Source: a virus. From it: a stretch of 30,299 nt of DNA. Shown one piece after another: positions 19,366-30,299 of this stretch. Positions within the stretch are counted from its first letter, which is position 1. The number at the start of each line of letters is the position of its first letter. The notes beneath the pieces were generated by a model. The model was given only the letters and a program-made list of their open reading frames with translations. It did not search any database and was not told where the DNA came from. Position numbers and translations under genes: made by a program. The DNA lies in the IMG/VR virus record IMGVR_UViG_3300029625_000050, positions 1-30,299 of that record; one strand, given 5' to 3'.

Positions 19366-22300
19366 ATGCCTGAATACCTCGGCAATGTGCCGATCCCCGA
19401 GATCACACCGAGCGGCGTGTTCCCCATCACGCCAGATTACCCGCTCGAGGTGCGCCGCGATCATCACGTCGTCGTTCAACAGTTTGGTTCGGGCAACGCC
19501 AAAATCGAGCAGCGCTTCCTGCTCGGCACAGGCGCGCGGCGCTTCACAATCCGCAAGCAACGGCTCCGCGATGCAGACCGCATAGCGCTCCGTAACTTCT
19601 GGGAGCAGAAGTACGGCGCTTTCGGAGCCTTCACCTACAACGCGCCGAATGACAACGGCGTTGGCGCCACGCCCGTCATCTGCCGCTTTGCGAACGAGCC
19701 CCTGACGTGGGAGATGGTCGCGGACTGGGCGTGCTCGCTGGGGGTCACGCTCATCGAGATCCCGCAGACGACGCCATCCTATCCGCTCAACCAGACCGTC
19801 AGCAGATTCCCTCCAGAAGCCCTGAAGCAAGCCCTGCTCGCGCAGGTCCAGGAAATCATTCCGCTCGTCAGGATCGTTCCCAAGCAGCAGGGTTACCCAT
19901 CCATCTACATCTCAGACCGGCGCTGCATTGTCGGCGGCCAGCTCTATCAGGCCCGCCTGATCGAATTCGAGGGAATCGCCCAGTCGCTCGGCGGCGAGTC
20001 GGACGAAGCCCGGTTCGTGTGCGGCAACGCCGACCGCGTCATGCGCGCGCTGGCCAATGACGTCGATCTCTACCGCGCGGAACTCGAGTTTGCCCTGTTC
20101 CATGTCGGCACTGGCATCAAGCTCGACCTGTGGAAGGGCGAGATTGTGGATTGGTCCTGCGACTCCGGGCCGGAGTTTCAGATCACGGCGGCTGACGGTC
20201 TCTACGAACTTAACCTACCCTATCCTACCAGGCGCATTTCCAGGACCTGCTGGAAGGCCTTCAACTCCGCCGCATGCCCGTTCAGTGCGCAGGGAGCACT
20301 GGATTTGGTGCACTTCCCCGAGGCCGACTCCACGCGTTGCGACAAGGGCTTTGAGACAGCAAACGGTTGCCGGGCGCACGGCATGGCCGATTATTTCGGC
20401 GGCATCGTCGCGAAACCTCAGAGTGTCAGGATCAAGGACAACTCGACTGGCGTCTGGGGCTTCGGCCGCTCGACACTTACCTCCGTCTCGCTCGTTGCGG
20501 ATTCGATCTACGACCAGGTTCTGCCCGAGATCTACACTGATTCGGCCATGCCGGTGAACGCCAAGATCGCCATGGGGCGCGACGAGAGCGACTTCTACTC
20601 GGCGGTGGGCATCGTGGGCGAGGGGCCGCTGGGCGCCTACGGCACGGGTCACAAGCTCGACGGGCAGTACCACCACGGCTACCCGGGTTCGCTCGGGCTG
20701 CTCGAAAACCTCGGGCCGGATCCGAATCCCACGGCATTCGGCTTCGATACCGACGCGCCCGTGATCACGGAACGGGCTGCAGGGACGGCCTTCGTCATGA
20801 TTCGCCGTTCGGACGCCAAGGGCTTGCAGCTTTCGCGATTGAGTGAGCACGCAATGGAAGTCATCGTTGCGCAGGGCTTGGGCGGCTGGACATGGACGGC
20901 GCCCGGCAATCGCACGTGGCGGCCAGCGCTCACCAACCCCATCTGGATCGCCGTGAACATGCTCCTGCGAGCGCGCGGCATCCGGATGGGCGCCAACGCC
21001 ACGGCTCAGCAGCTTGATTTCGCCGAGACGCTGTTTGACGTCGACGCGAGCGTAGCGGCCGCCTCGATCTGCGACGAGCAAGTGTCAAAGCTGGTGGGCA
21101 CGGGCACCGAGACCCAGTTCAAATTCCGCGGCGTCCTGCAAGAACAAAAACCACTGAGAGACTGGCTACAGGAGATCCTGGCGAACTGCCTCGGCTATTA
21201 CACGTTTGCCAACGGTAAACTCAAGCTCGGCGTCCGCGTCAACTCCTCGGCCGTCGAGGCCTTCACCGAGGGCAACATCCTCTTCCGCAGCCTGCAGCTC
21301 GCGCCGTTGCGGCCCAGCTTCAACCACATCACGGCGAATTTCGCCGATGAGGATTTCGGCTTCGTGGCGAACTCGGTCTCGCTCTATGACATCGACCATG
21401 CCGAGCTGGTCGGCGGAGGAGCGGGGCCGCTATTCCTGAAATCGAGCCTCAACCTTGCTGGGACCTCATCGAAGTCGCAGGCAGCGCGGATCATCACGGT
21501 TCGCTTGCGCGAAGAGCTCGGAGGCATCACGCCGGCCGAGTGGAAAGCCGCGCGCCAGGTCGCCTTCCGGACCACCGTGCTGGCTCTGAACACCGAGCCC
21601 GGCATGGTCTGCTCGCTCACTCATCCGGACATGCCGGGTGGTAGTGGCGAGTTCCGCGTCACCGGTTGGCGGCTCAACAAGGACTACTCGATCGACATCC
21701 AGGGCCGCACGGTGACGGACTCGATGTACGATCTCGTCGCTGGCCCCAAGCCGGCCGACGTGGTGCCCGAGCCGCCATCGGAGGAGATCTTCATCGACAC
21801 TGGCGTCCCCGGCGTGCTGAGCGGGACGCCGAAGCTGGGCGACTACGGCACCTTCGTGCTCGACGACATGGACGTGGCGCCAGACGCCACCGGCAACCGC
21901 AACATTGTGGGGGCGCGGGAGATCACGCTGACCCTCTACTACGTGGACGAGCTGACCACGGACCTCTGGGCCTCGATCGACCAGCCGCTCGGAAAAAGCA
22001 CGGACCCGGCCACTGTCATCTGCACCGTGAACCCGGACACCGGGCGCGTCTTCCGCGTCGGTGACTTCGTGGTCTTCAACGACGAATCCGCCGATCCGGA
22101 CAACCCGGGCCGCCGCTCGTATGAGTGCGCCCAGATCATCGGCCCCGGCGCGGAGGGGGATGTCGTGCCGTCGGGGACTTTCGTCCTCCAGCGCGCCTAC
22201 CCGGGCGTGCCCGGGGGCCAAGCCACATTCGGCACCCTGCGTTGCGCCCACCCGGCCGGCATTCGTTTCTACAAGCTCGACAAGAAGACTTTCACCTTCA

Positions 22301-23112
22301 GCGTCCGCAAAGGCTTCTTCCGCAACCCGCGCCTGCCCGCGCGTGTCGAGGCGAAACTGCCGAGCGCCTGCATCGTCGCCGCAGTGGCCGGCGTGGCCAA
22401 CCATTTCGGCTATGGCCCGCTGAAAATCTGGGCGCTGTCACAGCACAGCGAGCCCTTCATGCCCGGCCTGCGCACCTGCAACGGCGGCGCCTACATTTTC
22501 CAGCGCCCCGGCCCCTTGGCGGTCGAGGAAACAGCCGGACTGCCGGTGCGGGTGCAAGACTCGGCCAGCATCCGCTGCATCTACGCCTACGTGCAGCGCG
22601 GCACGAGCGACCCCGGCGCGCAGCTCTTCACTGTCAAGCGGCGGCGCGCCGGCAGCGCGGAGTGGGAGCCGCTTGAATACATGGCTATCTGGACGTGGGA
22701 TCCGCCGCTGACCAGCACTTACGAGGGCAAGGCCCCGCCGGACCAGCGACGATTGCCTTACATGGACTGGGGCAACGTGATTCTCGACCCGATCACGGGC
22801 AGCCCTGACCCGCAGACGCTGACCGTCGGCTGGACGATCCAGGACGAGAACGCCTTCCTGCTCCGACCGGGCATGTGGATCCATCTCGGACTCGGGACGC
22901 CACATGAAGAATACGTGCGCGTGCTCTCCGTGAACCCGTCGAGCATGCAGTTCACGGCAATCGTGCGGCGGGACCATCCTGCGCAGACGTTCATCCAGCC
23001 GACCATCTGGCCGACGCCTGTGCTCATGGAGGGCGATGACTTGAGCTACGACATCTACCGCGTGCCGTCACCCGACCCGGGCGCGGATCTCACTGTCGTG
23101 ATTCAGACCTGA
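19366..23112 (+). CDS. Tail tip fusion: gpM-like, gpL-like iron-sulfur and gpJ-like hub domains
   Basis: A 1248-residue protein. Residues 20-135 resemble the small minor tail domain of the gene at 18349 (LRNFWEQKYGAFGAFTYN). Residues 150-345 match lambda gpL: after a beta domain come Cys295, Cys304, Cys325 and Cys335 (TCWKAFNSAACPFS, STRCDKG, NGCRAHG), the layout that binds a 4Fe-4S cluster in gpL. From about residue 350 to 830 it resembles the phage tail hub/attachment family (gpJ-like), with LRDWLQEILANCLGYYTFANGKLKLGV and FNHITANFADEDFGF. The remainder is beta-rich with VRVLSVNPSSMQFTAIVRRDHP. Lambda encodes M, L and J separately. No K (NlpC/P60) or I gene is present between them. Confidence 0.8.
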   Translation: MPEYLGNVPIPEITPSGVFPITPDYPLEVRRDHHVVVQQFGSGNAKIEQRFLLGTGARRFTIRKQRLRDADRIALRNFWEQKYGAFGAFTYNAPNDNGVGATPVICRFANEPLTWEMVADWACSLGVTLIEIPQTTPSYPLNQTVSRFPPEALKQALLAQVQEIIPLVRIVPKQQGYPSIYISDRRCIVGGQLYQARLIEFEGIAQSLGGESDEARFVCGNADRVMRALANDVDLYRAELEFALFHVGTGIKLDLWKGEIVDWSCDSGPEFQITAADGLYELNLPYPTRRISRTCWKAFNSAACPFSAQGALDLVHFPEADSTRCDKGFETANGCRAHGMADYFGGIVAKPQSVRIKDNSTGVWGFGRSTLTSVSLVADSIYDQVLPEIYTDSAMPVNAKIAMGRDESDFYSAVGIVGEGPLGAYGTGHKLDGQYHHGYPGSLGLLENLGPDPNPTAFGFDTDAPVITERAAGTAFVMIRRSDAKGLQLSRLSEHAMEVIVAQGLGGWTWTAPGNRTWRPALTNPIWIAVNMLLRARGIRMGANATAQQLDFAETLFDVDASVAAASICDEQVSKLVGTGTETQFKFRGVLQEQKPLRDWLQEILANCLGYYTFANGKLKLGVRVNSSAVEAFTEGNILFRSLQLAPLRPSFNHITANFADEDFGFVANSVSLYDIDHAELVGGGAGPLFLKSSLNLAGTSSKSQAARIITVRLREELGGITPAEWKAARQVAFRTTVLALNTEPGMVCSLTHPDMPGGSGEFRVTGWRLNKDYSIDIQGRTVTDSMYDLVAGPKPADVVPEPPSEEIFIDTGVPGVLSGTPKLGDYGTFVLDDMDVAPDATGNRNIVGAREITLTLYYVDELTTDLWASIDQPLGKSTDPATVICTVNPDTGRVFRVGDFVVFNDESADPDNPGRRSYECAQIIGPGAEGDVVPSGTFVLQRAYPGVPGGQATFGTLRCAHPAGIRFYKLDKKTFTFSVRKGFFRNPRLPARVEAKLPSACIVAAVAGVANHFGYGPLKIWALSQHSEPFMPGLRTCNGGAYIFQRPGPLAVEETAGLPVRVQDSASIRCIYAYVQRGTSDPGAQLFTVKRRRAGSAEWEPLEYMAIWTWDPPLTSTYEGKAPPDQRRLPYMDWGNVILDPITGSPDPQTLTVGWTIQDENAFLLRPGMWIHLGLGTPHEEYVRVLSVNPSSMQFTAIVRRDHPAQTFIQPTIWPTPVLMEGDDLSYDIYRVPSPDPGADLTVVIQT

Positions 23113-23273
23113 TTCCCGTTCCGGTCGTGGAAGTCCCTGTTCCACTTGAGCTCGCGCTGCCCCGCGCGATCTTCCTCCTTGGCGCGATCTCTGGATGACC
23201 TTGCGCGATGAGGCAAAAACGTGACTACCAGCGCGATGATGATGAGCGCAACGGGAATCCACAGGCCGAGCAT
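23103..23273 (-). CDS. Antisense 56-residue single-span membrane protein
   Basis: The gap after the tip gene is filled by a minus-strand frame too short for usual ORF cut-offs. It starts at ATG 23273-23271 and ends at TGA 23105-23103, overlapping the tip gene end by ten bases. The product opens MLGLWIPVALIIIALVVTFL, a clear transmembrane helix, and continues with a highly charged tail (HRARSSRDRAKEEDRAGQRE, then KWNRDFHDRNG). TAGGAT lies nine bases upstream and could act as an AGGA ribosome site or as an extended -10 (TGC before it). This is the only gene on the minus strand inside the late operon. The protein-like segregation of hydrophobic and charged residues argues that it is real. Confidence 0.55.
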   Translation of the reverse strand: MLGLWIPVALIIIALVVTFLPHRARSSRDRAKEEDRAGQRELKWNRDFHDRNGNQV

Positions 23274-23299
23274 GCTTTGTTGATCCTAGCACGAACGAG

Positions 23300-26200
23300 A
23301 TGTCTTCGGACATTGTAAGGCTCTTCGACCCTCGCCGTACGATCCAGCTTCAGGGCTTTTCCGGCCGCGCGGCGACCACCACGCTCCATGACGCCACTGA
23401 GACCGGCTTTCAGATCTCAGGCATCTTCCAGGCGGCCGAAGATTTCGCCAATGTCCAACTCTTTTCCGCCTACGATTACTTCAACCATCTGCGCCTCAAA
23501 CCGCTCCCGGTGACGGACCTCTCCGGGCTGACCCTCCAGTACGACATGGAGGTGCTACCCGTGAATGGCGAGGAGGGCAATGTCCGGCCGGATTGCCCGC
23601 GGTATCCAAGCGTGGGTTGGGACAAGCTCACCATCACCACAGGCGCCGGGGACATCTACGAGGTCCCGGTCATGAACCACGCAGCGTTTGTGGCCGGCGG
23701 TGTCACTCCGGGGCGATTCGAGTTTGAACTGCAGGACCGTGATGAAGCCATCCTGGATTCCCTCCTGATCGGTCATCCGACGCCAGCGTTGACCGACAAA
23801 GTCTATGTCTACTTCATGGGGACCCGCTGGTCGTGCTCGTCAGCCGAGGCGATCGGATTCTGCGGCCTGGAAACCGCAATCACCCGGGATATCGGCAATC
23901 CGGATGCCCCATCGACAGATCAGGCCATTTGGTGGCAAGGGGATCCGTGGTTCTACCACAACTTTGCTGTCAACAACACCACTGTGGCCGTGCGGGAAGG
24001 CTTGTTCGCCAACGCGGCCGAGATCGCTTCGTTCTTTTCATCATGGTTCAACGCCAACATGGGCAGCCTGGTGGGCTGTACGGCCTCCGGCAATGTGGTG
24101 ACCGTGACGTTGCAGCCAGGGCAGAACGGCCCCGTGGTCGTCTGGTCAAACAGCGGCTCCGGATCGGCCACGCTTACACGGTTTGTGCCGGGAATCTATA
24201 CCGTGCGGGTGCAATCCTCAGCCGAGATGCGTCCCGGGGATTATGTCGGCATCGATATTGGCGCAGCCAACGATGAGGTCGTGAAAGTGATCTCCGTGGC
24301 CTCCGGCAATTTCACGGCCTATTTCGCCAAACGCCATGCGGCCGGAGCCGTCTGCCGCGTGCTGCCGCGGGCGCGGCATTTCGGCCGCGTGCTCAAGAGC
24401 CGCATGGTGGACGGCCCGCAGCCGGACTACGGCGACCAGCCGTCGAGCCTCGCGGTCGACGAATTCAAGACGACAGACAAGTCCGCAACACTCAAACTGA
24501 AGCTGGCCGGCCCGCTCGGACAGTACGGGCGCGATGCAAATGGCATCCCAGTGCGCGTCTCCGCCGACCCGGCCAATCAGATCGTCGGGCTGCAGGACGG
24601 CGCTACGGTCATTTCCACGGCCGTGCAAGGCGCTGCAAACACGCGCGTCTACCGATTCACGTTCCCCTTCGTCGCGCTGTCCGGCTACAAGAACGGAGAC
24701 CGCCAGGCGTTGGTGCCTGTGCCTGCCACCGACATTGTCAAGATCCACCTCACCTTTGCGCCGCGCTTCGAGGATGTGGAGGCAGGGCTGCGGGAAGGCG
24801 GGCGGCTGAAGCAGGCCGTTGCGGCCTCGCCCGCCGGGACAGAGGAGGAGTGGCATCTCACGAACGCTGAGGAGATGCCCGCAGGGCGCAAGTACTATGT
24901 CGGCACGCCGAGCATCGAGGAACGGATTTCCTGCATCGCCAACTTCGGCCTCCAGAAGCCGAACCCGAATGATCCGGCCACGTGGTATTACCGCGTCATT
25001 GTGCGCCGCGGCGAGGATTCCTCGGCGCCGCAAGCCTGGCCGGCAGGCACGCGCATCCAGCGGATCTCGACCATCACCGGGACGCGCTCGGACATCGAGT
25101 GGCAGGTGCGCATCTCAAACCTCACGGTCACCGGTGACCGAACGTTAAAGGTCGGCGGCGGTGCGCCGCGGATCGAAGAATCGGATGGCCGCTGCCGGTA
25201 TGAGGGCTACTGGGAGGATTACCGCTACGGCACGGGCTGGCCCACGCAGTGGTGGTCGCTCGGCCACGCGAAACGCTGCGCGCCGACTGACGCCCAGGAT
25301 CGCCGCACGGTTACGATCCGATACTCCCACCCACGCGAGCACGATCTCTACCTCGGCACTTGGCTTGGCCGCGATGCCGGCCGGATTGCGGTCAGCATTG
25401 ATGGCGGCGCACCAGCGGTGCATGATCTCTACCTGAACGACTACAACGGCCTCGCGGCGATGAAGCGACTCACCACCGCGCTGCCTGGCGGGACGCACAC
25501 GGTCGAGATCCGCGCGCTGTTCGACAAACACCCATCCAGCAACGGCTATTACTTCTACTTCGACTACTTGTGGCCGCTAGAGCCGCAGAACCCGCCCGAT
25601 CCGCCCAAGGTCTATCCCGACGTCTCCCTCGCCATCGACTTCGACACCGACCACGGCTACAAGAAGCCGCCAGCCTGGCACGTTTGGCATCTGCAGAAGC
25701 TCGGCTTCCTCGGGCACGCCGACGTCTACATGGGCGTCTTCTGGAACAACAAGCGCCGGCGCGTTGAGGCGACTTATCCAAACTGCACAGTCGCCATCAA
25801 CGCCTGGGATCCTGACCAGCCGCTCTGGATCAACCTTTCCGGCACGACGCTCTACTTTTCGCCCGGCGCAGGTCTCTCGACCGAAGATATCGCCGCCCAC
25901 CTGCGCGCGATGATCAACGTCACCTTTCCGGGCGTCTGGTGCACCAGCGAGGGCGGATCGATTCACATCCGCTCCCGCGCACCCAGCTACATCTTTACGA
26001 TTGCGGCCAGTCCGCAATTGAGCATCTCTCAGGGCGCGCCGCCGCTTGACCAGCGGGGCGCCGAGGGCGACTGGGAGATGATCGACTCGATTTCGCCCGT
26101 GATGACCAACGGCGCGCGGAACTGGATCCGGGATCTCGCGCGCGAGTTCAAGCAGGCCGGCATCGGCGCCAGCTTCGCCTTCTCGATGGAGTGCTACCGC

Positions 26201-27121
26201 CCGCCTATGGCAATGGCCGCACGCTACTGGGACGGCGAGCCGGTCTTCCTGCCGATCCCGTCACACCAGATGCACTTCGGTCCGCGCGTCCGGAACTACC
26301 TCAAGCAAATGTACAAGGAGTGCGCCGACGAGATCGCCGCCGCCGGCATGCCCATCGTGCTCCAGTTCGGCGAGACGCAGTGGTGGTACTTCCCGAACGC
26401 CTCCGGCATGCCGTTCTACGACGACGACACGAAGGCGGCGTTCCAGGCCCGCTACGGGCGGCCTTTGCATCGGTTCCTGGCCAACACCGACTCGCCCAAC
26501 GACGACATCGAAGCGGCCAACTTCCTTCGGGACCGCATCTGGGAGTATTGCGCCGAGGTGATCAGCTACGTCCGGCGGTTCCATCCATCGGCGGTGTTTG
26601 AGTGCCTGTGGCCGCTCGACGCCAACCAGGGCAAGCCCGCGCCGGACCCGGCTTTCCGCGCGCTCAACTTCCACGTCAACCTGCCCAACGAATGGCAGAC
26701 CTCTGCCTACGGCGTGAAGTACTTCCGCGCGGAAGGGTTCGATTACGACGTCTGGCAGAAGAACGCACGGCTCATGCGCCAGACGCTCGAGTTCCCGCTG
26801 AAGCTCGGTCGCCCGCCGTCCGAATGCATGTACCTGGCCGGGATCTACGGCCCGCCCGATCCGCCGATGCGCGAGGCCTACGGCATGTGGCGCAACCGTG
26901 GCCTGCACTCGTTCTGCTTCTGGGCGCTCGACCAGTTCTGCCTGAACTCGCGCCCCGTGCCGCTGGAATCGGCAGCGGAGGCAGCCGCGACGCTGGCAAG
27001 TTATCACCGGCCCCGCGTCGCGCGCGCGGTCGAGACGCCCGTAGCCGCGGCCTATGCGCCGCCGGCAAGCAGCCGGATGAACACGTTCCGCTGCAATTCG
27101 AGGAGGATGAATGCCGAGTAA
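23300..27121 (+). CDS. Large tail protein with glycoside-hydrolase-like C-terminal domain
   Basis: A 1273-residue protein starting at ATG 23300. Residues 1-400 are a beta-rich phage domain (RLFDPRRTIQLQGF; FQAAEDFANVQLFSAYDYFN). Residues 634-762 look like a jelly-roll sugar-binding domain (YSHPREHDLYLGTWLGRDAGRIAVSIDGG; HTVEIRALF). Residues 774-1235 look like a TIM-barrel hydrolase: SLAIDFDTDH near the first strand, SFAFSMECYRPP (958-969), PIVLQFGETQWWYFPN (1018-1033, Glu1025), ECAEVISYVRRFHPSAVFECLWPLDAN (Glu1101) and GLHSFCFWALDQF (1201-1213). Glu1025 and Glu1101 stand where clan-A glycosidases have their acid/base and nucleophile. A tail-borne depolymerase that clears surface sugars is the likely role. 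Activity is inferred. Confidence 0.65.
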   Translation: MSSDIVRLFDPRRTIQLQGFSGRAATTTLHDATETGFQISGIFQAAEDFANVQLFSAYDYFNHLRLKPLPVTDLSGLTLQYDMEVLPVNGEEGNVRPDCPRYPSVGWDKLTITTGAGDIYEVPVMNHAAFVAGGVTPGRFEFELQDRDEAILDSLLIGHPTPALTDKVYVYFMGTRWSCSSAEAIGFCGLETAITRDIGNPDAPSTDQAIWWQGDPWFYHNFAVNNTTVAVREGLFANAAEIASFFSSWFNANMGSLVGCTASGNVVTVTLQPGQNGPVVVWSNSGSGSATLTRFVPGIYTVRVQSSAEMRPGDYVGIDIGAANDEVVKVISVASGNFTAYFAKRHAAGAVCRVLPRARHFGRVLKSRMVDGPQPDYGDQPSSLAVDEFKTTDKSATLKLKLAGPLGQYGRDANGIPVRVSADPANQIVGLQDGATVISTAVQGAANTRVYRFTFPFVALSGYKNGDRQALVPVPATDIVKIHLTFAPRFEDVEAGLREGGRLKQAVAASPAGTEEEWHLTNAEEMPAGRKYYVGTPSIEERISCIANFGLQKPNPNDPATWYYRVIVRRGEDSSAPQAWPAGTRIQRISTITGTRSDIEWQVRISNLTVTGDRTLKVGGGAPRIEESDGRCRYEGYWEDYRYGTGWPTQWWSLGHAKRCAPTDAQDRRTVTIRYSHPREHDLYLGTWLGRDAGRIAVSIDGGAPAVHDLYLNDYNGLAAMKRLTTALPGGTHTVEIRALFDKHPSSNGYYFYFDYLWPLEPQNPPDPPKVYPDVSLAIDFDTDHGYKKPPAWHVWHLQKLGFLGHADVYMGVFWNNKRRRVEATYPNCTVAINAWDPDQPLWINLSGTTLYFSPGAGLSTEDIAAHLRAMINVTFPGVWCTSEGGSIHIRSRAPSYIFTIAASPQLSISQGAPPLDQRGAEGDWEMIDSISPVMTNGARNWIRDLAREFKQAGIGASFAFSMECYRPPMAMAARYWDGEPVFLPIPSHQMHFGPRVRNYLKQMYKECADEIAAAGMPIVLQFGETQWWYFPNASGMPFYDDDTKAAFQARYGRPLHRFLANTDSPNDDIEAANFLRDRIWEYCAEVISYVRRFHPSAVFECLWPLDANQGKPAPDPAFRALNFHVNLPNEWQTSAYGVKYFRAEGFDYDVWQKNARLMRQTLEFPLKLGRPPSECMYLAGIYGPPDPPMREAYGMWRNRGLHSFCFWALDQFCLNSRPVPLESAAEAAATLASYHRPRVARAVETPVAAAYAPPASSRMNTFRCNSRRMNAE

Positions 27122-28982
27122 GTTTCCGAACTCCATCGACGACGCATCGAGCCTCTACTCGCCTGCCGACGCCTTCTCAGCCAAGCCGCTCGAAACGATC
27201 ACCACGATGCCGGTCTACGCCGGCGACACGACGATCAGCGTCGAGTCGACGGGCGTGGGCTTCCCTGATGAATATGGAATCCTCTCCATCGACGACGAGC
27301 TGATCGTCTACACCGGCAAGACCGCCACGCAGTTCACCGGCTGCCAGCGCGGAGCCTTCGGCACCGTTGCAGCGCAGCACGCTTCCGGCGCCACCGTGCG
27401 CGCCAACATGGTCTCGGCCTACATCAAAGCCCTTAAGGACGCCGTGCGCGCAGTCCAGCAGGACATTGGCACCGCATCGAGCCGCAACTACGTCCGCAAG
27501 GACGGCCCAGTGACGATCACCGGCCAGAAGAGCTTCGTCGACGGCGCGGAGTTCGGCTCGGGCACCAAGGCCGCGACCGGTCTGGTGCGCCTGCCGAACG
27601 GCGGGCCGATCAAGTGGCGCAAGGCAGACGGGTCCGGGGATCTCGGCCTGACTTTGGGCGCGAACGATCACCTGGTGGCCGATGCGATCATCGACTTCGC
27701 CCCTGGGCAGACCTTCGGCGCGTTCTCCTACCCGGACGCCGGCTACGGTAACAAGGGCATCGTGCAGATTGATCCAGCCGGAGGCCTCGCCGTCGATTCG
27801 GGCATCGTGTCCATGGCTCCCTCCGGGGCGGCGCCGGGCACTTACTCGAAGGTTACCGTCGATGCCAAGGGCCGTGTGACCGCCGGCGCAAACCTCGCCG
27901 CAGCCGACCTGCCCAGCCACACGCACACCGCCGCCGACATCGTGAGCGGTGAGTTCCCGCATAAGGTCCAAAAGGACGGAGCAGACGTCGGCACGCGCCG
28001 GGCACTCAATCTTGTCCAAGGGAACCGGGTCTCGCTCGCCGCCGCCGATGACCCAGCCAACGACCGGGTCAGCGTGACCATCAGCGCGAGCCCGCCGGAG
28101 GCGAGCGAGATCACCAACGCCCTTGGCTACATCCCGGCAAACCGCGCCGGCGAGCACTTCACCGGCCCGGTGGACTGCGGCCCGCATCAGACCATCGGCG
28201 GACCGCTAGAGAACATGGCGAAGCACTCGGAGAACTTCGCCGCAGCAACGTGGGACAAGAACGGCGGCTCCTGCTCGGTCACCTCGAACGCCGTGATCGC
28301 CCCGGACGGCCACCAGACGGCGGACGTCGTTACAGCAGTCACGGACACTCCCGTCATCCAGCAGCAAATCGCTGGCCTCGCGGACGGCGGGACCTACACC
28401 TTCTACATCTGGGTCCGGGTGCCTTCCGGCACCCGAAAGATCTCCCTCGCCATCGTCGACAATGCGTATGCCACCTACCTCGCCGGCCCCACCCAGATCA
28501 CGCTGACGACCTCGTGGCAGCGCTTCAAGATCGCCGGCGCGCTGGCGAGCGGCCAGACCGGCCTCTGGATCGTGGTTCGCCAGTTCGCAGCGAACGGTGA
28601 CGACTGGACCACCGGCGACATCCACCTCTGGGGTGCCTGCCTCCAGCAGGGAAACGATCCGCAGAAAGCTTACGCCCGCACCTGGGCTTCACAGACGCCG
28701 CACATCGCCTCCGGCCTCGCCGCTGGCCCCTCCGTCATCGCCGCCTCGGACCCGACCACATCGCCCCTCAAGATCCACGGCCCCGGCTCCAACCTTGCCG
28801 ACAGCACGCTGCTTGAGCTGACCCCCGCCGGCGAACTCATCCTGGCCGGCGGCTCCGGCAACGGCTACCGGTTCGCTGATCTTGGAGCGGCAAGCAACCC
28901 ATCCGGCTGGGCTGGCGTGATCCGGGTCAAGACACCGGCGGGAGCCACCCTTGGCTACATCCTGCTCTACTCGAACCCCTGA
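27111..28982 (+). CDS. Tail fibre with carbohydrate-binding-like domain
   Basis: A 623-residue protein overlapping the previous gene by 11 bases; AGGAGG (27101-27106) precedes ATG 27111. Residues 30-110 carry the small beta domain found at the start of many fibres (GDTTISVESTGVGFPDEYGILSIDDELIVYTG). Residues 240-280 contain GTYSKVTVDAKGRVTAG and SHTHTAADI, the histidine motif of trimeric phage fibres in which His pairs bind metal. Residues 366-525 look like a CBM4/9-type jelly roll (ENFAAATWDKNGGSCSV; TYTFYIWVRVPSGTRKISLAIVD; WQRFKIAGAL; LWGACLQQG). The C-terminus is GADLGAAS-like repeats ending LGYILLYSNP. It would recognise the host surface. Confidence 0.8.
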   Translation: MPSKFPNSIDDASSLYSPADAFSAKPLETITTMPVYAGDTTISVESTGVGFPDEYGILSIDDELIVYTGKTATQFTGCQRGAFGTVAAQHASGATVRANMVSAYIKALKDAVRAVQQDIGTASSRNYVRKDGPVTITGQKSFVDGAEFGSGTKAATGLVRLPNGGPIKWRKADGSGDLGLTLGANDHLVADAIIDFAPGQTFGAFSYPDAGYGNKGIVQIDPAGGLAVDSGIVSMAPSGAAPGTYSKVTVDAKGRVTAGANLAAADLPSHTHTAADIVSGEFPHKVQKDGADVGTRRALNLVQGNRVSLAAADDPANDRVSVTISASPPEASEITNALGYIPANRAGEHFTGPVDCGPHQTIGGPLENMAKHSENFAAATWDKNGGSCSVTSNAVIAPDGHQTADVVTAVTDTPVIQQQIAGLADGGTYTFYIWVRVPSGTRKISLAIVDNAYATYLAGPTQITLTTSWQRFKIAGALASGQTGLWIVVRQFAANGDDWTTGDIHLWGACLQQGNDPQKAYARTWASQTPHIASGLAAGPSVIAASDPTTSPLKIHGPGSNLADSTLLELTPAGELILAGGSGNGYRFADLGAASNPSGWAGVIRVKTPAGATLGYILLYSNP

Positions 28983-28992
28983 GGGAAAATCG

Positions 28993-29020
28993 CCGCGGGT
29001 ACGCCGTCTCGCACCCGCGG
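28993..29020 (+). other. Hairpin after the fibre gene
   Basis: CCGCGGGT (28993-29000) pairs with ACCCGCGG (29013-29020), an eight-base-pair stem with a 12-base loop, eleven bases after the fibre stop. There is no T-run after it, so it is not a standard intrinsic terminator. It may protect the 3' end of the late mRNA or mark the boundary of the accessory region. Confidence 0.4.
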
Positions 29021-29037
29021 CAACAATGGAGGAGACT

Positions 29038-29317
29038 GTGGCTGACTCTTCGGTCAGCTATATCCCATGGATATCAAAGTCCATGAGGTGGCGCAATGCC
29101 GGCCTGTTTGGGATGTTGCAAGCGTCAGGGGGAAAGATAATAATAATCGGGCTGGTTTCCATTGATCTGCCTCCATATATCGTTCGTCATGATCGAGACA
29201 CCACTGTAGAGTCAGCAGCCGTCCTTATTCTACGTCCATGCCTGTCGATCCGGGTTGTAAATTTGTCGTGGATCCCTGAGATGAAAAGCAGACAGCCGCC
29301 ACCTCTTAAACAGGACC
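29038..29317 (+). other. Lower-GC stretch with an uncertain reading frame
   Basis: This section is visibly richer in A and T than the rest (for example AAAGATAATAATAAT at about 29135-29149). A frame starts at GTG 29038 (or ATG 29026) behind TGGAGGAG and opens plausibly as VADSSVSYIPWISKSMRWRNAGLF. After about 35 residues it loses any protein character, and it would run 260 bases into the kinase gene (to 29577). CATGGA and TCCATG eight bases apart (about 29069-29088) form a small inverted repeat. I see no other gene. It may be a broken small gene or the control region of the kinase. Confidence 0.35.
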
Positions 29318-30223
29318 ATGACGTTTTCAAGCTATGGGAATGCCGAGAAAAAATGCCAGCAGCTCCGTGCGGAGCGTTATTTGAGACGCTTAACAGGCCG
29401 ATCGAGAGCGTCTCTCGTGGAGGCCGACGACGCCTGTCACTACGCCGTCAAGCCCCCGCGGAGGCTCTCAGCCTGCCGCGAGCTGATCCACGAGTGGATC
29501 GCCAGTCGGCTGCTGGCCAGACTGGGCATCCGGACCGCGGTTGTGCGGCCGATCGTTGTCAGCGAGGAAATCTCTAAGCAGTGCGGCTGGGATGCAGATT
29601 TACTCGATGCGGCTCGCGTCGATGGCGGCTGGCTCTGCGCGGCAGCAGCCTATCCGTGCGATCCGATCCGCGGTGTGATCTACGACTTCTGGCCGGATTC
29701 GATGGCGCACCTGGTTGTCAATGCGGACCATATCGTCGGCGCACTCGTAGCCGACGTGTGGATGGCTCACCAGGAGCCGCGGCAGGCGGTGTTTTACCGC
29801 GACGAGAACCGCGAGGTCTGGGCGATGATGATCGACCACGGCGCCGCACTGGGCGGATCCAACTGGGATGGTGCTGTCAGCACCTCCCTGCTCGGCATAG
29901 GCGCCCGGTGGGCATACAGAGGCTTGCACGGGATGGAAGAGCTGGATCGTTGGGCCGAGGCGGTCTGCAGGATCGAGGAGGATTGGATCAGGCAACTGTT
30001 TCGGGATGTTCCATCGCCTTGGCTTGGCGAAGGCGATGCGAGTCGCCTGGAGGAGCGTGCCGAGTGGCTGATTGCGCGCCGCGAGCCGTTGTCCGCGCTG
30101 CTATACGGCCTGATCCTGGCCGCGCCGGAGAGCTTTCCTTGCCTGCATCTGCGGATCCCTCCCCGCAGTGCACTCTCCCGCAGCACGATTTCGTTGGACA
30201 CTGATTTGCGATACAAGGAGTGA
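29318..30223 (+). CDS. HipA-like kinase
   Basis: A 301-residue protein beginning at ATG 29318, the only start in frame after a TGA at 29282; AGGA lies just before it. The family pattern is clear: HYAVKPPRR (Lys45, ATP lysine), CRELIHEWIASRLLARLGI (51-71), GVIYDFWPDS (119-128), VADVWMAHQEPRQAVFYRD (145-163) and VWAMMIDHGAALGG (167-180, Asp173 in the DFG-like position). These match the HipA-like kinase group common in soil bacteria. In E. coli HipA the loop is ATDGHAKN with a catalytic Asp; here the matching stretch is AHQEPRQ, so the Asp is replaced by Gln or Glu. It may be an inactive or re-tuned kinase. The position after the tail genes marks it as phage cargo. Confidence 0.8.
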   Translation: MTFSSYGNAEKKCQQLRAERYLRRLTGRSRASLVEADDACHYAVKPPRRLSACRELIHEWIASRLLARLGIRTAVVRPIVVSEEISKQCGWDADLLDAARVDGGWLCAAAAYPCDPIRGVIYDFWPDSMAHLVVNADHIVGALVADVWMAHQEPRQAVFYRDENREVWAMMIDHGAALGGSNWDGAVSTSLLGIGARWAYRGLHGMEELDRWAEAVCRIEEDWIRQLFRDVPSPWLGEGDASRLEERAEWLIARREPLSALLYGLILAAPESFPCLHLRIPPRSALSRSTISLDTDLRYKE

Positions 30224-30226
30224 AAG

Positions 30227-30299
30227 ATGTCCAACACCAATCCTTCGATTTCCGGGCCCGCAGAGGGAGCCCGGAGGGCGACCGGCGCGGGCCCGGAAA
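30227..30299 (+). CDS. Start of a further gene, cut by the window edge
   Basis: AAGGAG (30215-30220) stands six bases before ATG 30227, just after the kinase stop, and the frame MSNTNPSISGPAEGARRATG... stays open to the last base. It is Gly/Ala/Arg/Pro-rich without a recognisable motif in the 24 codons visible. Linkage suggests co-transcription with the kinase. The coding claim is tempered by the long inverted repeat that fills most of the visible sequence. Confidence 0.4.
   Translation, partial: MSNTNPSISGPAEGARRATGAGPE
30249..30299. repeat. Perfect 13-base inverted repeat at the window edge
   Basis: TTTCCGGGCCCGC (30249-30261) and GCGGGCCCGGAAA (30287-30299) are perfect inverted copies with 25 bases between them. 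It ends exactly at the window edge, so the arms may be longer. It lies inside the reading frame at 30227. It could be an mRNA hairpin, a repetitive palindrome or the beginning of a terminator. Confidence 0.6.

Follow-up and report, generated by a model that had tools for sequence, protein, structure and literature searches.

Layout of the tail protein

We analyzed IMG/VR virus record IMGVR_UViG_3300029625_000050, a virus contig of 30,299 bases that was used at its full length and is called the window here; gene coordinates are window positions. The gene at 23300 to 27121 on the plus strand encodes a large tail protein, in which an earlier note made from the letters alone had seen a glycosidase-like barrel at the C-terminal end. 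Its open reading frame (ORF) contains the motifs LQFGETQWWYF, around Glu1025, and VFECLWP, around Glu1101. Our best reading of the product is a single-chain tail-tip adhesin of the N4-sheath family, that is, a non-contractile tail sheath protein (NCTSP) with a PF23844-like N-terminal domain and a PF23845 TIM barrel. The N-terminal domain, a jelly roll, the barrel, and a beta-domain inserted into the barrel are all supported by sequence and model. The features are listed below, where counts out of 47 refer to a set of relatives, termed A2, with less than 85% identity.

23300 to 27121, +: single-chain NCTSP-type tail protein, 1273 amino acids (aa) (ORF; PF23845, E 1.2e-10; phrog_6040, E 2.5e-17)
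23300 to 23959, +: N-terminal region, residues 1 to 220, sharing homology with the N-terminal sheath domain found in N4 gp65 and IMEAB3 (family profile)
25217 to 25585, +: jelly-roll, binding-module-like domain, about residues 640 to 762 (profile, Foldseek, beta-rich in the model)
25619 to 26944, +: (beta/alpha)8 barrel, about residues 774 to 1215 (two models, fold matches, Pfam)
25637 to 25651, +: Asp780 and Asp784, end of strand 1 (invariant in 47/47 rows of the group)
25775 to 26035, +: beta-domain insert in the loop joining barrel strands 2 and 3, about residues 826 to 912 (47/47 relatives)
26189 to 26191, +: Glu964, after strand 3 (47/47 relatives; 9/9 scored cultured-phage barrels)
26372 to 26374, +: Glu1025, after strand 4, QxGE motif (47/47 relatives; 10/10 cultured-phage barrels)
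26600 to 26602, +: Glu1101, strand 5, group-specific (47/47 relatives; 0/10 cultured-phage barrels)
26732 to 26734, +: Glu1145, end of strand 6 (47/47 relatives; 10/10 cultured-phage barrels)
26930 to 26932, +: Asp1211, after strand 8, group-specific (47/47 relatives; 0/4 cultured-phage barrels aligning there)

Placement in the N4-sheath family

The window protein almost certainly belongs to the N4-sheath family (PF23844/PF23845). The sole Pfam family on it was PF23845, “Non-contractile tail sheath protein TIM barrel,” which matched residues 928 to 1213 (E 1.2e-10) with 41.4 bits versus a cutoff of 27. With a threshold of E 0.01, 46 of the 47 relatives matched this family too, and the Pfam scan of all 47 at that threshold returned nothing beyond PF23845 and DUF5849. 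The window protein also matched PHROG 6040, which is of unknown function (E 2.5e-17). The A2 profile alone reached the solved N4 gp64 (E 5.1e-11; E 6.3e-13 with hhalign).

A profile of 45 N-terminal regions matched IMEAB3 (E 3.8e-9), N4 gp65 (E 1.4e-5), and Phobos33 (E 3.6e-4), together with Ro121, 18-1-2, Lebethron, and TCUP2199, and gave no significant match to rV5_ev147, BCL3, or Achelous. These matches imply that homology to N4-type proteins extends beyond the barrel. PF23844 itself was unmatched on the window protein in the Pfam scan; one relative (locus L152) carries it as NCTSP_N, with E 2.4e-6 and 27.3 bits versus a cutoff of 27, and the N-terminal sheath domain is recognized through the family profile and this relative.

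A tblastn search from N4 gp64 found 322 cultured-phage records. Within the “phages” set, tblastn searches with the window protein and with the relative at locus L165 gave no matches, nor did a DNA-level search with window positions 19366 to 30299; tblastn with L152 returned 122 records, with a best E of 1e-3 among the matches listed. Since the direct searches with the window protein and DNA were empty, the link to the family is carried by profiles, Pfam, and structure. In a tree, the Acidobacteriota-type group and the cultured-phage group lay on separate sides with 100/100 support. The branches between them measured 2.26 and 1.4 changes per column, about 3.7 in sum; the tree program gave a long-branch warning, and the root is arbitrary. 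The proposal of a new tail depolymerase family did not hold, as the protein falls into the existing PF23845/PF23844 families. The barrel family is already known, and the Acidobacteriota form is a new variant of it.

Barrel fold and structural neighbors

Both predicted models (mean pLDDT, 73.1 and 89.5) contained an eight-stranded (beta/alpha)8 barrel. The better one covers residues 630 to 1240, was made from the 47 A2 relatives, and has a pTM of 0.80. Its strands end near residues 777 (a short strand in the model), 811, 961, 1023, 1105, 1145, 1181, and 1208. The prediction of a glycosidase-like TIM barrel was thus borne out by structure prediction and fold search, by a Pfam TIM-barrel family above its cutoff, and by glycosidases among the fold neighbors. 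The jelly roll that had been placed next to the barrel was found as well: it precedes the barrel, and the A2 profile matched it to the solved chain 7ehg, MiXBM (E 6.3e-7), as did Foldseek (7ehg_C, E 2.5e-6).

The nearest solved chain to the model was N4 gp64 (9yf5_SA; Z 26.7, root mean square deviation [rmsd] 3.1, 309 residues aligned), and a second N4 gp64 chain (9lc0_M) aligned over 296 residues with Z 25.2 and rmsd 2.7. The next matches were GH42 (5e9a; Z 22.1), PgaB of GH153 (4p7o; Z 21.7), and Cwp19 (5oq2; Z 21.5), with GH35 and GH14 glycosidases at Z of about 20; rows less than 1 Z apart are read as ties. The best predicted viral structures came from IMEAB3, Goslar, Aeromonas phage MJG, and Delftia phage RG-2014, and the MJG and RG-2014 entries are already labeled “non-contractile tail sheath TIM barrel.” The window barrel shares its fold with the PgaB C-terminal domain and with GH42, GH35, and GH14 at Z of about 20 to 22, but it has neither a clan-A acid on strand 7 nor a significant PgaB profile match. 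We rejected membership in GH153: hhalign to PgaB gave E 0.14 and a probability of 0.4, and GHL13 (PF14883) was unmatched in the 47 members.

The PgaB match bears on a label already in print. N4 gp64 and its Vequintavirinae relatives have been called glycan deacetylases, a label based on Phyre2 in PMC8594841, and the accessible part of PMC8669472 deals with homologous glycan deacetylase tailspikes. However, the model aligns to about residues 311 to 668 of Escherichia coli PgaB, which is the GHL13 hydrolase domain (318 to 645) and not the deacetylase domain (102 to 270), and N4 gp64 had no Polysacc_deac_1 match at E 0.1. The name “deacetylase” would then come from the wrong PgaB domain. We consider a deacetylase very improbable and rejected it on these two grounds.

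The likeness to the TIM barrel of gene transfer agents (GTAs) that had been drawn earlier would make this a megatron-type barrel derived from the hub. The gene does follow a hub, and the fiber protein downstream has a GTA-type domain (NF048003). However, the Pfam scan of the 47 members returned no GTA barrel family at E 0.01 or better, and a clear PF23845 match was found instead, so that this origin is scarcely credible. We take the GTA megatron TIM barrel to be PF13547. GTA or R4C megatron chains were absent from the best 50 fold matches listed, an absence that excludes nothing.

Conserved acidic residues

Eight acidic residues were invariant in 47 of 47 rows: Asp780, Asp784, Glu964, Glu1025, Glu1101, Asp1107, Glu1145, and Asp1211. 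We compared them with ten cultured-phage proteins that cover strands 4 to 6, two of which are near copies. Glu1025 and Glu1145 were kept in 10 of 10, Glu964 in all nine scored, and Asp at position 784 in nine of the ten that cover strand 1, with a gap in Achelous. Position 1101 held Thr in nine and Ser in one; Asp1107, just after strand 5, was absent from all ten, and Asp1211 from the four that align there. These counts imply that the family-wide acids are those at strands 1, 3, 4, and 6, while Glu1101 and Asp1211 are confined to the Acidobacteriota-type group.

The earlier note had also proposed clan-A spacing and motifs. Glu1025 fits, lying two residues past strand 4 of a (beta/alpha)8 barrel in a clan-A-like position in the model. 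Glu1101 does not, because it lies within strand 5, four residues short of the strand end, and on strand 7 (residues 1176 to 1183) Asp or Glu occurred in at most one of the 47 rows per column. In clan A, the strand-4 Glu is usually preceded by Asn; in the window protein, Gly precedes Glu1025. With no conserved acid on strand 7, the clan-A pair is absent, and we rejected clan-A membership.

A true glycosidase with the pair Glu1025/Glu1101 on strands 4 and 5 would have a parallel in GH13-type barrels, in which these strands carry two of the catalytic acids. Both residues, and Asp1107 with them, are invariant in the 47 relatives, which speaks for the pair. However, Glu1101 and Asp1107 are missing from every cultured-phage barrel compared, and Glu1101 sits four residues short of its strand end in the model. 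We regard this pair as unlikely, although it could hold within the Acidobacteriota group only. An active-site role for Glu1025 is very probable. If the barrel is an enzyme, the conservation pattern makes Glu1025 the best catalytic candidate, and Glu1145 or Glu964 may be a better partner for it than Glu1101. Conservation counts alone are no demonstration of catalysis.

One barrel split or interrupted at the same loop

The loop between barrel strands 2 and 3 holds the inserted beta-domain, with 91 to 121 residues in 42 of the 47 relatives and 198 to 203 in the other five. A paralogous copy of the insert was found upstream by profile in 15 of 47 relatives, and the repeat gained further support when relatives were searched by phmmer with the C-terminal region. 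The window protein was not among these 15 at E 0.01; a BLASTP comparison of its insert with its own upstream repeat gave a weak match (E 0.11).

The N4 pair gp65 and gp64 (locus L173) and the Phobos pair Pho33 and Pho34 (L178) divide the barrel over adjacent genes at the same loop. Positions 4 to 46 of the Pfam barrel lie in N4 gp65 (residues 374 to 416) and positions 60 to 347 in gp64; in Phobos, positions 1 to 46 lie in Pho33 and 55 to 346 in Pho34. From these Pfam positions and the fold, N4 gp65 and gp64 would together complete one barrel. The N4 gp65:gp64 complex (PDB 9lc0, 9yf4, and 9yf5) resembles the window protein in its N-terminal domain, its barrel, and the positions of Asp784, Glu964, Glu1025, and Glu1145. 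It differs in that gp65 holds the part with strands 1 and 2 plus about 970 further residues and gp64 holds strands 3 to 8, whereas the window protein is a single chain and has an insert of 90 residues where N4 is split; moreover, N4 lacks Glu1101 and Asp1211.

The siphophage IMEAB3/Lebethron tail protein is, like the window protein, a single chain of a long-tailed phage with a tail-tip position. Its gene order is TMP, Dit, NCTSP, tail, and fiber, with the NCTSP gene directly after Dit, whereas the window has a large hub in between; it has no large insert between strands 2 and 3 and has Thr at position 1101. The rV5_ev147 protein (Vequintavirinae/Phapecoctavirus type) shares the N-terminal domain and barrel with the window protein, but these phages are contractile tailed and their proteins lack the large insert; the barrels of rV5_ev147 and IMEAB3 are each in one chain. 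Deposited labels for the Vequintavirinae/Phapecoctavirus proteins are “lateral tail fiber,” “non-contractile tail sheath,” and “baseplate protein with EPS depolymerase activity”; we looked for an assay supporting these labels and found none. The “EPS depolymerase” of PMC6690015 is an Erwinia phage protein that we could not connect with the PF23845 family, and we set it aside. Taken together, the strand 2-3 loop exists in three states: plain, with a small domain (the window group), and divided between two genes, following a block of some 970 residues (N4).

Genomic neighborhood and distribution

The two flanking genes of the tail protein are as follows.

19366 to 23112, +: hub or tail-tip J-like protein, 1248 aa, upstream (PHROG matches)
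27111 to 28982, +: fiber protein, downstream (PF02018 CBM_4_9, E 1.6e-7; NF048003 GTA_spike_fiber, E 1.5e-18)

The hub matched phrog_31, “central tail fiber J” (E 1.3e-11), and phrog_5616 (E 9.6e-11) and, below cutoff, PF13550 Phage-tail_3 (E 0.0057) and DUF2460 (E 0.047), so the placement of the barrel gene after a hub was right. A solved-structure search with the hub protein gave no match. Among 93 near-group loci, a hub homologue was found in 80 and a fiber in 89; in all 77 loci with both flanks, the order was hub, tail protein, and fiber. The window gene set (large terminase, portal, head protease, lambda-D-like decoration protein, major capsid, tape measure, hub-like protein, and fiber) is a siphovirus-like head and tail module. 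An N4-like sheath around a short tail would be unlikely in such a phage, and a place at the tail tip is likelier.

Close relatives occupy 52 loci on viral contigs and another 46 on genome contigs. By title, 45 of the 46 genome-contig loci were from Acidobacteriota and one was from Planctomycetota, in a scan that used two short peptide patterns only and does not imply absence of the family elsewhere. A profile search matched 16 of 16 records (13 such genomes and 3 viral records), all chosen for having the family, with 1 to 9 stretches each, some of which are two pieces of one ORF. The same search uncovered a divergent second group, and 20 regions were fetched, this group among them. Three genomes (G011, G012, and G002; loci L141, L143, and L109) had up to 9 matched stretches each, which suggests many related prophages or remnants per host. 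Another copy (L170, in G009:C12) is interrupted by a TAG stop in frame, which would fit a prophage in decay. Host-type genes lay near the two copies checked, MacB/FtsX at L157 and an outer-membrane receptor at L106, which makes them prophages or prophage remnants. The carrier is best explained as an uncultivated siphovirus-like phage, or a prophage, with soil Acidobacteriota of the order Bryobacterales and their kin as hosts. The accessible parts of two papers on soil or Acidobacteriota viruses (PMC6172770 and PMC11924767) make no mention of the tail protein.

At the left contig end, a tRNA-Cys (GCA) at 91 to 162 on the minus strand could belong to the phage itself or to a host in which the phage had integrated there; an Rfam scan of the window gave 0 matches. 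Positions 187 to 1299 encode a replication-initiation-like protein (phrog_16167, E 1.6e-31), with helix-turn-helix regulators beside it at 1296 to 2185. At the right end, 29318 to 30223 had a weak HipA-like kinase match below cutoff (PF20613, E 7e-5).

Proposed role of the barrel

We propose that the N-terminal region would anchor the protein to the tail tip, close to the hub, and that a host-surface glycan would be bound by the jelly roll and by the insert between strands 2 and 3. The barrel groove, lined by Asp784, Glu964, Glu1025, and Glu1145, would cleave this glycan or, if inactive, grip it, which would give the tail access to the outer membrane. Should the barrel be catalytic, the most likely acid/base would be Glu1025 on strand 4, with Glu1145 (strand 6) or Glu964 (strand 3) as its partner. 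We arrived at this model from the glycosidase fold neighbors together with acids kept across a very deep split, and from the MiXBM-like jelly roll, the CBM_4_9 domain in the neighboring fiber, and the order of hub, gene, and fiber. A glycan-directed role of the barrel protein is probable, and we hold the combination of family identity with such a role to be just as probable. Actual glycan hydrolysis by the barrel is predicted with about even confidence. A “tail depolymerase” role is reasonable, although putative.

Several points weigh against this proposal, beginning with the bare strand 7. Pfam scans of the window protein and the 47 members gave no match to a glycoside hydrolase family. Two carboxylates of catalytic geometry are putative, and the second acid is a candidate. 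The location in the virion is itself inferred. A hub recognizable by tblastn was found in only 13 of 24 far-group loci, and a fiber in 2; at two far loci without such a hub (L162 and L165), the adjacent gene encodes 1284 to 1308 aa with Phage-tail_3 above cutoff. Finally, the accessible part of the N4 sheath paper mentions neither “glycosid” nor “hydrolase” (PMC12633501).

The main rival is a pseudo-enzyme. Here, the barrel would be a structural and receptor-binding scaffold as in the N4 sheath, and the acids would serve in sugar binding or in keeping the fold, not in catalysis. In the accessible part of PMC12633501, gp64:gp65 is a six-fold heterodimeric sheath, gp65 is the receptor-binding protein, and the assembly is described without an enzyme role. 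In the phiAxp-3 gp65 homologue, the receptor-binding part is reported to be residues 795 to 1195 (PMC5862860), which lies beyond the N4 gp65 barrel fragment (374 to 416) and, by position, within the block of about 970 residues. Residue conservation also leaves more than one candidate for the second catalytic acid. However, Glu at strands 3, 4, and 6 and Asp at strand 1 have been kept through those roughly 3.7 changes per column, as have the QxG before Glu1025, W1029, N1127, and D1148, and it would be surprising if a pure scaffold required them all. We place the pseudo-enzyme somewhat short of an even chance. A barrel hydrolase with no obvious second catalytic acid has a precedent in PgaB, where one Asp is the probable catalytic acid and further acids bind substrate (PMC5933820).

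A more far-reaching version of the glycan-cleaving model, which we offer tentatively and hold to be less likely than not, is that PF23845 barrels are an unrecognized glycoside hydrolase family in which a strand-4 Glu works with a strand-6 or strand-3 Glu in place of the clan-A strand-7 Glu. Such a family would span siphoviruses, podoviruses, myoviruses, and Acidobacteriota prophages, reaching N4 and rV5; the N4 enzyme would be assembled in trans from two genes, and the published “glycan deacetylase” would be a glycosidase. The same version would have a receptor-binding block inserted at the strand 2-3 loop of the N4 ancestor, with the gene then breaking there. Among the open-access papers searched, we did not find “non-contractile tail sheath” coupled with “TIM barrel,” nor the term “TIM-barrel” in those on the phage N4 tail sheath or gp64.

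Taken together, the initial observation was sound and its reading partly wrong: the barrel belongs to a known structural family, and a different residue pair is favored. An almost unstudied, widespread group of Acidobacteriota phages and prophages is now linked to the N4 sheath. One set of acidic residues is predicted to form a pocket across several hundred phage records, and the PgaB alignment suggests that the “glycan deacetylase” label of N4 gp64 and its Vequintavirinae relatives arose from the wrong domain. In this family, one barrel and one loop occur plain, with a small insert, or as a two-gene split.

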